The notes under the pieces are model-generated. The model was not told where the DNA came from, ran no database searches, and saw nothing but the letters and a program-made list of their open reading frames with translations. Below, one piece after another: positions 5,805 through 55,863 of a stretch of 64,000 nt of DNA. A program made the position numbers and the translations under genes. How positions within the stretch are numbered: position 1 is the first letter of the stretch; each line of letters opens with the position of its first letter. The stretch is from NCBI RefSeq assembly GCF_014196765.1, contig NZ_JACIEE010000002.1, positions 556,616-620,615 of the forward strand. The letters run 5' to 3'. The DNA is from Mycoplana azooxidifex (GTDB lineage: Bacteria > Pseudomonadota > Alphaproteobacteria > Rhizobiales > Rhizobiaceae).

Positions 5805-5998
5805 ACATGATGATCAAACGGCCGCTCCTATCGGAACAGCCAAAAATACGTATGCGCGATGGGTGCGTTCGTGATCATGGCGGCGATATTCTCCGTTTCT
5901 CTGCGGATGTCAATCGGGAAAATCGCGAGGAGGCCGGGGATTTATACGAGTCGCGAGCGTTGCCGCGGCACCCGGTGGACGGCCACCACATACACCGC

Positions 5999-6111
5999 CG
6001 TCACGCCGGACCCGATCCGGCGTCCAGCAGCGCCGCGTCTGCGGCGCGGGAGGTGATTCATTCGCGCAAGGACTTGCGCGGCTGGACGCCGGATCAAGTC
6101 CGGCGTGACGG
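5999..6111. repeat. Palindromic intergenic repeat, family A
   Basis: A complete copy. The arms CGTCACGCCGGACCCGATCC and its near complement enclose the inner palindrome cgcaaggacttgcgcg. It lies downstream of kgtP. Confidence 0.8.
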
Positions 6112-22572: not shown

Positions 22573-22743
22573 GCGTGACTCCGATTGAGGCCGGTGCGGC
22601 GGAACGACAGAGATAGAGACAGGCGCGTCGCGCATCAAGATGTTTGGTCTGAGACGACAGGAGCCGGCTGCCGCCGCGACGGCTCGTCCGGAATCGGCCG
22701 CCGTTGCCGCCCCGGGAGTATCGACCGTTGCCGTCCTTCTCCA

Positions 22744-22858
22744 CCGTCATGCCGGACCCGATCCGGCATCCAGCGGCGCCGCGTCCGCGGCGCGGGAAAT
22801 GCACTTTTCGCGCAAGGACTTGCGCGGGCTGGATACCGGCTCGGGGGCCGGTATGACG
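22744..22858. repeat. Palindromic intergenic repeat, family A
   Basis: A complete copy beginning CCGTCATGCCGGACCCGATC with inner palindrome cgcaaggacttgcgcg. It is almost identical to the next copy at 22980. Confidence 0.85.
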
Positions 22859-22979
22859 AAGGAGGGGGCGATGTGCGAAGAGAGAAGGCAAGTCGCTGAA
22901 CCGACCTGAATCTATTCCCGGCGACCGGGCATGGGCCGGGACATGCATGCTGTTGTCAGCACGGTAGCGACATACGCCA

Positions 22980-23094
22980 CCGTCATGCCGGACCCGATCC
23001 GGCATCCAGCGGCGCCGCGTCCGCGGCGCGGAGTATGCTCTTTCGCGCAAGGACTTGCGCGGGCTGGATACCGGCTCGGAGGCCGGTATGACGG
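22980..23094. repeat. Palindromic intergenic repeat, family A
   Basis: A complete copy 236 bp after the previous one, in the same orientation. It differs at only a few positions, mainly just left of the inner palindrome. Confidence 0.85.
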
Positions 23095-23147
23095 AGGAGG
23101 GGGGCGATGCGCGGAACAGTACGGCATGACGCCGTGCTCCCGCCCCG

Positions 23148-31355: not shown

Positions 31356-31610
31356 ATGCCGCTGAACATCAAGGACGAGACCACGCACGAACTTGCGCGG
31401 CAACTGGCCGAACGGACGGGTGAATCCCTGACGCGGGCCGTCCGCCATGCGCTGGAGGAGAAACTGGCGCGGCTTCGTGCCGAGAAGCCCGCGCCCCGAC
31501 TGGCGGACCAGCTCGACCGGATTGCGCTGGACTGCGCTGCCCTGCCGGTGCTCGACCGGCGTTCGCCGGAAGACATCATCGGCTATGACGAGGATGGCCT
31601 GCCGCAATGA
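31356..31610 (+). CDS. vapB: Type II antitoxin VapB (PSK-type RHH)
   Basis: 84 aa. The N-terminal [40 protein letters not shown] pattern is the Rv0623-type antitoxin domain, a ribbon-helix-helix variant. The C-terminal ~30 residues form the toxin-wrapping tail ([15 protein letters not shown]). A purine-rich ribosome binding site (GAGGAAAGGTGG) precedes the ATG. The stop overlaps the VapC start by four bases (ATGA). Confidence 0.92.
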
Positions 31611-32002
31611 TCGTGCTCGATACGTCCGCGATCGTCGCCATTCTCTCGGATGAACCCGAACGGCGCGCCTTCAACGAGATCATCGAGCGCACGCCGGTCC
31701 GCTGCATCAGTGCTGCGTCCCTGCTCGAGACGAAGATGGTGCTGTTCGCCCGCTTCGGCCCGCAGGCGTCGAATGCCGTCGATGCCTTCATCATGCATGC
31801 AGCCATCAGGATCGAGCCCGTCAGCGCGGAGACGGCGGAGATCGCTTTCGACGCCTTCCGCCGCTTCGGCCGCGGAAGCGGCCATCCGGCGAAGCTGAAC
31901 TATGGCGATTGCTTCTCCTATGCGCTCGCCCGGGAAAAACGGGCGCCTCTGCTTTTCAAAGGTGGCGATTTCGGCCATACCGACATAGAACCTGCGCACT
32001 GA
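31607..32002 (+). CDS. vapC: Type II toxin VapC (PIN-domain ribonuclease)
   Basis: 131 aa PIN-domain RNase. The conserved acidic metal-binding residues are present: D5 in [14 protein letters not shown]41 in [11 protein letters not shown]101 in [12 protein letters not shown] and D121 in FKGGDF. VapC toxins cut tRNA or rRNA when the antitoxin is lost. It is translationally coupled to vapB. It looks intact and there is no sign of decay. Confidence 0.94.
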
Positions 32003-32134: not shown

Positions 32135-34696
32135 ATGCAGACGGACACAATGGCCATGACGTTCGTCGCCTTCTGCCTGCCGTTTCTCGGCGCGGCCCTG
32201 GCCCCGGTCCTGACGCGTTTCCTCGGCCACAACGCCGCCTGGCCGTTGGCGCTCTTTCCGGCGGCGATCTTCCTGCATTTTTCCGGCTTCCTTTCCGAAA
32301 TCGCAGCCGGCGGCGTCGTCACCGGCGGCTATGCCTGGGTGCCTTCCTACAATGTCAGCTTCTCCTGGCTGATAGACGGCCTGTCGCTCACCTTCCTGCT
32401 GCTCATTTCCGGCATCGGCACGCTGATCGTCCTCTATTCCGGCGGCTACCTGAAGGGCCATCCCCACCAGGGGCGCTTCTTCTCCTTCATCCTGATGTTC
32501 ATGGGCGCGATGCTCGGCCTCGTCGCCTGCGACAGCTTCCTGATGCTGTTCGTGTTCTGGGAGCTGACCTCGATCACCTCGTTCCTGCTGATCGGCTTCG
32601 ACCATGCCCGCGAGGCAGCGCGCCGGGCGGCGCTGCAGGCGCTCGTCGTCACCGGCGGCGGCGGGCTGTTCCTGCTCGCCGGCCTGCTGGTGCTGTGGAA
32701 CGTCACCGGCGTCACGCAGCTGTCGCTGCTGCTCTCCTTTGGCGAGGAGGTGCGCGCCAGCCCCTTCTATGCCGCGATCCTCGTGCTGGTGCTCGGCGGC
32801 GCCTTCACCAAGTCCGCGCAGTTCCCGTTCCATTTCTGGCTGCCGAACGCGATGGAGGCGCCGACGCCGGTTTCCGCCTACCTGCATTCGGCGACCATGG
32901 TGAAGGCCGGCGTCTATCTGCTGATGCGGCTCAATCCGGTGCTCGGCGGAACCACCCCGTGGGCGACGATCCTGCCGGCCTTCGGCGGGCTGACGCTCCT
33001 GGTCGGCGGCGTGCTGGCGATCCGCCAGACCGACCTGAAGCTGATGCTCGCCTATACCACCGTCGCCTCGCTCGGCCTGCTGGTGATGCTGACCGGGTTC
33101 GGCTCCGAGCATGCGGCGGCGGCCGCAGCCCTCTACCTGGTGGCCCATTCGCTGTTCAAGGGCGCGCTCTTCATGGTCGCAGGTGCGATCGACCACGAGA
33201 CGGGAACGCGCGACGTCACCCGCCTCGGCGGTCTCGCCCGGCTGATGCCGGTGACCTTCGTCACGGCCCTGCTCGCGGCGCTCTCGATGGGCGGCCTGCC
33301 GCCCTTCTTCGGCTTCCTGGCCAAGGAGGAGGTCTATGCGGCGCTCGCGGGCGGCAATCTCCGGGCGGTCGCCTTCACCTTGGCCGCCGTCATCGGCAAC
33401 GCGATGGTGTTCGCCGCTGCCTTCGCGGTCGCGCTGAAGCCCTTCCTCGGCCCTCGCGTCGAGACGCCGAAGGCGCCGCACGAAGCGCCGTTGCTGCTCT
33501 GGCTCGGCCCGGTGGTGCTGGCCGTCCTCGGTCTCGGCGCCGGCCTCCTGTCCCACGTCGTCCATCCGCTCGTCTCCTCGCCGCTTGCCGCCGCCATCGC
33601 CGGCCGGCCGGAGACGGTGACGATCTCCGCCATGCCGCATGCCGGCCTGCCGCTGCTTTTGTCGGCGGTCACCATCGCGCTCGGGATCGGCACATACCTG
33701 CTGCTCGACCGTGCACGCACTGCGGCCGCCCGACTGCTGGAGGATATCGGCTGGGGGCCGGACCGCGGCTTCGACCAGTTCATGGCCGGGCTCGTCCGTT
33801 TCTCCCACCGCCTGACGCGCCTGTTGCAGCCGGGGCTGATGGAAGCCTATCTCACGGTGACCTTCGTTATCGTGGCGCTGGCGCTCCTCGTTCCGCTCGC
33901 CTGGTACGGCGAATGGCCGCGGCTGCCGATCTGGCCGGCCGATGCGCAGTTCCACGAACTCGCCGTCATGGCGCTGGCGCTCGCCGGCGTGTTCGGCGTG
34001 CTTGCGGCGCAGAACCGGCTGAACGCGATCCTGGCACTCGGCATCCAGGGCTTCGCCGTCGCCCTGCTGTTCCTGCTCTTCGGCGCGCCGGACCTGTCCT
34101 TCACCCAGTTCATGGTCGAGACGCTTTCGGTCGTCATCCTGGCGCTCGTCATGACAAGGCTGCGCCTGCAGCCACGCGATGCCCGGCCGCTGGCGCAGAG
34201 GCTGCCCGACGCGGCGATCGCGATCGCCTGCGGCCTCGGCTTCTCGCTCTATCTGCTGAAGGTGACGCAGGGCCGCTTCGATCCGGTCCTGACCGAGTTC
34301 TTCGACCTCTATTCCAAGTCGATCGCCCACGGCGCCAATGTCGTCAACGTCATCATCGTCGATTTCCGCGGCACCGACACGCTGGGCGAGATCGCCGTCG
34401 TCATGACCACCGGGCTTGCCATCCTGTCGCTGATCCGCATCCGTAAGGGTGCGGCCGGCCCGGCGATGGCCGGCGGAGATGGCAAGGCGATTGCGTATGG
34501 CAATTCCCCCTCTGGCCTGCCGGCCATCTCCCCCACAAGGGGGGAGAACCCCCGAGGCACCCGTCTGCGCAACGTGTCCTCCGGCGAAGCGGCCGGGTTA
34601 AGCCCTCCCCCTCGTGGGGAGGGTGGGGAGGGGTCTTCACGCATACGCGGCGACGCGGGCGCGGATGTGCGCACCGGAAGGGAGCGGCAGCCGTGA
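32135..34696 (+). CDS. mrpA: Mrp/Pha cation-proton antiporter subunit A
   Basis: 853 aa, the largest membrane subunit of the seven-protein Na+(K+)/H+ antiporter and related to NuoL. The NuoL-like bundle includes [58 protein letters not shown] and [17 protein letters not shown]. The C-terminal DUF4040/MrpB-like helices end near IRIRKG at residue ~770. The last ~80 residues (from [16 protein letters not shown] onward) are a family B repeat read in frame, a non-native tail. GGGAGGGGG precedes the ATG. The stop overlaps the mrpB GTG start. Rhizobial orthologues (pha) support pH adaptation. Confidence 0.95.
34505..34637. repeat. Palindromic repeat, family B, lying inside mrpA
   Basis: A complete copy with the standard left and right modules. 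Unlike the other copies it is not intergenic: it is read in frame at the 3' end of mrpA and encodes most of that protein's tail. Confidence 0.9.
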
Positions 34697-35109
34697 ACAC
34701 CGTCATCTTCCGCACGCTCGCCCCGTTCCTCACCGCGCTGATGCTGCTCTTCTCCGTGTTCGTGCTCCTGCGCGGACACAACGAACCGGGCGGCGGCTTC
34801 ATCGGCGGGCTGATCGCAGCCTCGGCACTGGCGATCTACGGCATCGCCCGCGGCATCCGCCCGGTGCGCGAGGCGCTGTGGTTCCATCCGATGACGATCG
34901 CCGCCTTCGGCCTGCTGCTCGCCTGCATCGCCGGCCTCGTGTCGATCTTCGCCGCCGTTCCCTTCATGACCGGCCTGTGGATCTATCCGGGCCTGTTCGG
35001 CATCGTCGTGCCGCTATCGACGGTGATGCTGTTCGATTTCGGCGTCTACCTGGTCGTCGTCGGCGCCGTCACCTCGATCGCGCTGGCGCTGGAAAGGGAG
35101 GACATCTGA
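34693..35109 (+). CDS. mrpB: Mrp/Pha antiporter subunit B
   Basis: 138 aa with four transmembrane helices. The N-terminal [41 protein letters not shown] is the MnhB signature, and [24 protein letters not shown] closes the domain. It starts with GTG overlapping the mrpA stop (GTGA) and ends in TGATG, sharing one base with mrpC. It is part of the antiporter complex in the inner membrane. Confidence 0.95.
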
Positions 35110-55511: not shown

Positions 55512-55612
55512 GGCGGGCACCTCCTGTCTGTGCGACTCGCATTGTCGATGCGAACGCTGCGACATGAAACCGGAAATTGCGCCGGCGGCCGGGGCAATCG
55601 CCTATGAATGAA

Positions 55613-55733
55613 GCCCCCTCCACACTAGGGGGAGGGCTTAACCCAGTTGCGCGGCCGCGGCTCCATTCGTGTGGACGAGTGCCGCGGGTTTTCTCCCCTC
55701 TTGTGGGGGAGATGGCCGGCAGGCCAGAGGGGG
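55613..55733 (-). repeat. Palindromic intergenic repeat, family B (inverted)
   Basis: A complete copy in the opposite orientation to most others: GGGGGAGGGCTTAACC on the left and CTCCCCTCTTGTGGGGGAGA with TGGCCGGCAGGCCAGAGGGG on the right. Confidence 0.85.
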
Positions 55734-55863
55734 TCGCGCCGCATGCGATTGCCCTGTGTCGGTGCCCCGCCCGGGACTGCCTGCCGTTGACGGCCGTCGG
55801 CGTTCCGCGCTAGCCCAATACGGGGGCCTTGCGGTCGCCATGGGGCGTTCGGGAGCGAGAGGC

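Follow-up and report, generated by a model that had tools for sequence, protein, structure and literature searches.

The Rickettsia palindromic elements (RPE) are about 150 bp long, encode a conserved peptide and lie in frame inside conserved genes; according to the review that covers them, nearly half of the RPE first described are located in genes (PMC10969869). The enterobacterial RU-1/ERIC, RU-2 and RU-3 are described as small mobile sequences with open frames that have become fused at the C-termini of proteins, with the Erwinia amidase ECA3499 and threonine dehydrogenase ECA0168 among the reported examples (Delihas 2007, PMC2759123). The rhizobial RIME, Sm repeats and AB/C palindromes are reported as intergenic, with dozens of copies and a conserved secondary structure (PMC2573895, PMC2245857). 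MITEs, as characterised in a review, are shorter than 200 bp, carry terminal inverted repeats, encode no protein of their own, occur in many copies, form hairpins and are mostly A+T-rich (PMC2229807), and their in-frame fusions to genes, among them fusions at the C-terminus, have already been published. The in-frame fusion of small palindromic elements to genes is therefore established, and the case described here is a new example, not a new phenomenon. In the literature searched, outside which most subscription papers lay, we found no printed case of a rhizobial repeat in frame.

The window analysed here, a stretch of 64,000 nucleotides, contains an mrp operon of the Rhizobiales genome G000 (5.88 Mb, a draft of 29 contigs). 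The 3′ end of its mrpA gene contains a palindromic repeat that is open in the gene's own frame. We consider it highly probable that this is a MITE-like, non-autonomous palindromic element of the rhizobial RIME type which inserted in frame into the last codons of mrpA, and which is tolerated there without having a function. It would then be a clean, polarised case in which a palindromic repeat from between genes has been turned into part of the coding sequence for a subunit of a conserved membrane complex. The element agrees with MITEs in its length (about 176 bp), its terminal inverted repeats, its number (at least 50 genomic matches) and its hairpins. Moreover, its sites vary between relatives, the mrpA site being occupied in the window genome and empty in all six congeners. 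In contrast to MITEs, neither TA ends nor a target-site duplication could be seen in its copies, and it is GC-rich. By description it can also be likened to RIME, Sm and AB/C repeats, as its family is palindromic, mostly intergenic and found in Rhizobiales. There is presumably also some likeness in sequence to RIME (Rhizobium-specific intergenic mosaic elements). Set beside RPE, again by description only, it has in common a palindromic build, a peptide shared by the family and an open frame within a conserved protein gene. However, insertion into genes is not its habit (one of 30 copies, the best of at least 50 matches, in the window genome and none of 35 scorable copies in relatives), and the mrpA insert sits in a terminal tail. 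The initial annotation had drawn the comparison with Rickettsia, which is apt for the event itself and fails for the family at large. As ECA3499 is described, its usual stop codon was apparently lost through the RU, whereas mrpA still has the native end of its tail, its own stop and the overlap with mrpB.

A palindromic element in the mrpA frame

The features of the locus are as follows.

32135..34696, + strand: mrpA, Na+/H+ antiporter subunit A, 853 aa, with the in-frame insert (Pfam matches, solved MrpA chains)
34448..34482, + strand: native MrpA tail before the element (junction alignments with congeners; edge uncertain by several bases)
34483..34658, + strand: full repeat element, about 176 bp, mrpA-frame residues 784-841 (alignment with 29 other copies, and with 16 others in a second alignment)
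34483..34499, + strand: left terminal inverted repeat, 4 of 17 bases off consensus (counted by eye)
34527..34547, + strand: first perfect hairpin of the mrpA element copy, 8-bp arms with 5 bases between
34603..34623, + strand: second perfect hairpin of the mrpA element copy, 8-bp arms with 5 bases between
34642..34658, + strand: right terminal inverted repeat, drifted, 7 of 17 bases off consensus (counted by eye)
34659..34696, + strand: native MrpA tail after the element, ending ...RERQP plus the stop TGA (G004 ends ...KERQP, with the same GTGA overlap)
34678..34684, + strand: AAGGGAG, likely mrpB ribosome binding site as judged from sequence, outside the repeat element
34693..35109, + strand: mrpB, GTG start, 4-base overlap with the mrpA stop (MnhB match, Pfam)

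The mrpA gene is a single open frame whose TGA stop overlaps the GTG of mrpB at 34693, and the nearest named relatives of its product are MrpA proteins of Shinella (78-80% identity). Pfam matches to Proton_antipo_M, MbhD and MbhE cover the protein, the last one stopping at residue 770, and alignment to three solved MrpA chains reaches residue 771 only. A native end near residue 770 had been expected in the initial annotation, and orthologues without the insert do end near that place.

A family B repeat had been proposed inside the 3′ end of mrpA, at 34505-34637. The repeat is indeed present and not due to chance: used as a blastn query against its own genome it gave at least 50 matches (a lower bound, with 40 of 58 candidates scored), the best non-self match having E = 3.9e-44 and 88% identity. 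The proposed span proved to be its inner part only, as the full element runs from 34483 to 34658 and is bounded by terminal inverted repeats. These are 17 bp long (consensus CAGGGCAATCGCATATG on the left and CATATGCGATTGCCCTG on the right) and perfect in the element consensus, which was made by eye from copies of the window genome and of two congeners. They are recognisable at both ends of the best copies and eroded in others. Inspection by eye of 28 copies for which both flanks were at hand revealed no consistent target-site duplication, and the edges of the empty mrpA site are strongly diverged. The mrpA copy is 87% identical to the consensus and has diverged like other copies, which argues that it is not very young.

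In the mrpA frame the element encodes residues 784-841, a peptide ending in RIRGDA, and the same frame of the consensus gives a very similar peptide with no stop. A 47-aa core of this peptide has 23 matches in the genome, 20 of them without an internal stop, which confirms that the insert, translated in silico, yields the peptide found in one frame of its family. The consensus has matches at E 1e-25 in three of the seven genomes of the genus (G000 with 20 matches, G004 with 10 and G002 with 3), and at 1e-15 at least 14 of 151 genomes of the family, with at most five candidates per genome scored. A tblastn search of plasmid records with the 47-aa peptide at 1e-3 gave no match, and nothing in the window reached the gathering score of an Rfam family.

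Two further observations were made on repeats in the window. A near-full copy of the element is found at about 55590-55756; the same site in G004 seems to hold only both ends, which suggests an internal deletion there. Another repeat family, CGCAAGGACTTGCGCGG ... GGATACCGGCTCGG, is present at 5995-6081, 22741-22868 and 22977-23103, the last two copies lying close together.

The insert compared with orthologous MrpA tails

The element makes up 58 of the last 83 residues of MrpA. The earlier statement that the repeat encodes most of the last ~80 residues is correct in this respect, but native tail is found on both sides of it, with about a dozen residues before and twelve after, and nothing recognisable has been replaced. 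The insert is absent from the orthologous mrpA of all six congeners. The motif VDFRG is followed by 112 codons in the window mrpA versus 41-58 in the congeners, and by 53 codons in both G004 and G005, whose MrpA proteins are 91% and 90% identical to that of the window. Relative to these two the gain is exactly 59 codons, or 177 bases. The element measures 176 bp in the alignment, and this surplus of one base was counted against the insertion account. Removal of 34477-34653 fits the empty site slightly better than other spans. Even between G004 and G005 only 40 of 73 tail bases are identical, and because the MrpA tail evolves this fast the exact edges of the insert cannot be read off.

Tails in the family that lack the element vary in length but stay short, with 33-58 codons at 29 of the 30 loci of one set, the thirtieth being the window, 37-61 codons in 40 of 40 loci of a further set and 40-57 codons in 20 of 20 of a third. 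The loci of this third set, which have long open frames, were considered as further carriers of the tail and discarded, as they contain no element. Further out, long tails without the element do exist (84 codons in L083 and longer in L115), and those of L040, L043 and L105 run on into an MrpB-like part. A 114-aa tail query matched 239 of 394 family genomes at 1e-6. Among the matches listed, the full stop-free tail was found only in the window genome, and other matches starting in MrpA either extend no further than query residue 58 or are interrupted by stop codons. The observation that had been named as contradicting an insertion, the same tail in orthologues lacking the repeat, was made in none of the orthologues whose tails were read.

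The insertion would have taken place in the lineage of the window genome after its split from the nearest relatives sampled, presumably by transposition. With an element consensus that is open in two of three sense frames, and a net gain that is a multiple of three, translation could cross the element, continue into the rest of the native tail and terminate at the original stop, which lies on top of the mrpB start. An overlap of -4 between mrpA and mrpB is also found in all six congeners, which moreover have purine-rich stretches resembling AAGGGAG at the same place. Both the GTGA overlap and the upstream AAGGGAG are retained in the window, as was proposed when the operon coupling was said to have been kept. 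The landing place is a tail that evolves fast and follows the last transmembrane helix. Most likely, therefore, the antiporter has remained functional and the coupling to mrpB is preserved. In an AlphaFold2 model of MrpA (built with 19 orthologues) the last helix spans residues 746-773 and is followed by no secondary structure; pLDDT is below 50 over nearly all of 718-853, including 722-853, and because of this low confidence the unstructured tail of the model lends weak support.

Copies inside genes and readability of the element

A codon-usage gene caller, trained on the mrp operon of the window and recovering the mrp genes in a sanity run, was applied to the best 30 of the at least 50 matches in the window genome. 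All were intergenic (29/30) except the mrpA copy, the only one to overlap a gene, in agreement with the earlier view that the element is otherwise intergenic. In nine related genomes 36 copies were taken from 74 matches and one (L233) was dropped for lying at a contig edge; none of the 35 scorable copies is inside a gene, save for a single 2-bp overlap with a stop codon. At this last locus (L193, around 1501) the left end of the element supplies the TAG stop of the preceding called gene. The caller missed an 84-aa gene at 31356-31610 despite its strong Pfam match, which indicates that small genes can escape it.

Twenty ORFs, chosen among those that run into copies, were screened against Pfam as other possible in-frame cases. 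Nineteen had no match; the one that did (a glycosyltransferase family, L016) is part of a gene whose start the caller places 179 bases past the repeat. The remaining ORFs across copies are taken to be shadow frames of a GC-rich genome, and a long open frame alone was therefore not accepted as a gene.

The frames of whole elements were counted at 30 loci, one of which was dropped as too short; the mrpA copy is included in the resulting 29, and indels shift frames in this count. The sense frames are open in 16, 15 and 11 of the 29 copies and the antisense frames in 12, 12 and 7. Two sense frames are thus open in about half of the copies, so that openness needs no selection, and a random insertion of the element has a fair chance of being readable. 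An in-frame insertion was possible because the consensus is open in these two sense frames. The mrpA case illustrates why fusion can occur, given two open sense frames and a tolerant tail, and at the same time how rare gene fusion is for this family.

In its codon usage the insert is foreign to mrpA. The synonymous-codon score is -0.242 for the insert versus 0.294 for native mrpA, where the lowest 58-codon window scores 0.072, and third-position GC is 0.72 versus 0.91.

The mrpA/mrpB boundary and alternative explanations

Most relatives show a 4-base overlap or nearly no spacer between mrpA and mrpB (A/B). In 6 of 50 Rhizobiales loci (51 minus L092, on a broken contig) the two genes are separated by 115-310 bases, the others overlapping or lying within a few bases. 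Four of these gaps match the element motif pattern, that of L070 is palindromic by eye and by folding, and that of L088 is neither. The 149 other mrp junctions of the same loci contain four gaps of at least 80 bases, one of them with an element (L090, C/D); a 61-base gap at C/D of L070 holds a short element-like piece and was excluded from the count. The difference (5/50 versus 1/149) gives a Fisher p of 0.004 by locus and 0.014 by lineage in a comparison made after seeing the data, 0.015 without L070, and 0.012 with the L070 C/D piece as a second control case. In a further 39 genomes (40 minus a duplicate), chosen from matches to the tail query and not by random draw, insertions were found at A/B in 3 of 39, all palindromic, and at B/C in 0 of 38. 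The totals by locus are 8/89 for A/B versus 1/187 for the neighbouring mrp junctions, the loci not being independent. Two of 18 non-duplicate loci picked for long frames also have an A/B insertion (L174 and L175). Duplicates were removed throughout (L250, L159, L177 and L178, equal to L060, L054, L048 and L049), and same-species duplicates with different assemblies could remain in these counts.

The A/B insertions (L045, L066, L070, L073, L090, L174, L175, L263, L274 and L276) occupy spacers of 202-628 bp that follow immediately on the stop codon of mrpA. Grouped by eye, they come from about four lineages, namely Shinella granuli, Rhizobium sp. BK650, a Neorhizobium-like clade and a Peteryoungia-like clade, in all of which the element is placed after the mrpA stop. 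The spacer of L274 seems to hold two elements in a row.

From these counts it may tentatively be suggested that the end of mrpA is a recurrent and preferred landing place for RIME-like elements across Rhizobiales, whether for its target structure or for its tolerance, with an intergenic element breaking the overlap in about four lineages and the in-frame case upstream, in the window, being one of several. If so, the A/B junction would be a natural series for how repeat insertion tunes the coupling of mrp subunits, and the recurrence is in any event a testable side question. We regard it as doubtful, since the comparison is post hoc, only about four intergenic lineages contribute and their elements differ in type; L070 was judged by eye and not by the motif pattern, and the mrpA copy of the window stops about 35 bases short of the boundary, on its upstream side. 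Moreover, no RIME-like insertion was found at A/B in 22 further family loci (23 minus a duplicate).

Selection on the new tail is improbable as an explanation. The added basic, proline-rich peptide, or hairpins in the mRNA, would here alter MrpA assembly or the dosage of mrpA and mrpB. It is consistent with this that a copy about 13% off consensus has retained an open frame, but open frames are common among copies (15 and 16 of 29 for the two sense frames), the codon usage of the insert is not adapted and the tail is absent from all relatives whose tails were read. The RNA can fold stably (-118.4 kcal/mol, z -1.83); however, 8 of 200 shuffles fold as well, and RNA structure was set aside as an explanation for being only modestly stronger than in shuffles. 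A tolerated, in all likelihood neutral, in-frame insertion into a dispensable and fast-changing tail is the simplest account.

An artefact, by which the repeat was misplaced in assembly or an indel conceals an earlier stop codon (a sequencing error of which the initial annotation had warned), is very improbable. Misassembly is a risk for any repeat that has at least 50 relatives in a draft genome, here one of 29 contigs, but the element lies inside a 646-kb contig, no other near-full-length copy found is identical to the one in mrpA (best 88%), native tail is kept on both sides, and the family consensus itself, uncorrected, is open in this frame, so that no such error need be invoked.

Two minor observations concern other genes of the genome. 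A second MrpA-like gene, of 39% identity, is present at G000:C2:177618-179948 and has matches in all six congeners. Immediately before the mrp operon, at 31356-32002, lies a small gene pair with matches to an Rv0623-like transcription factor and to a PIN domain, which is probably a VapBC-like toxin-antitoxin pair.
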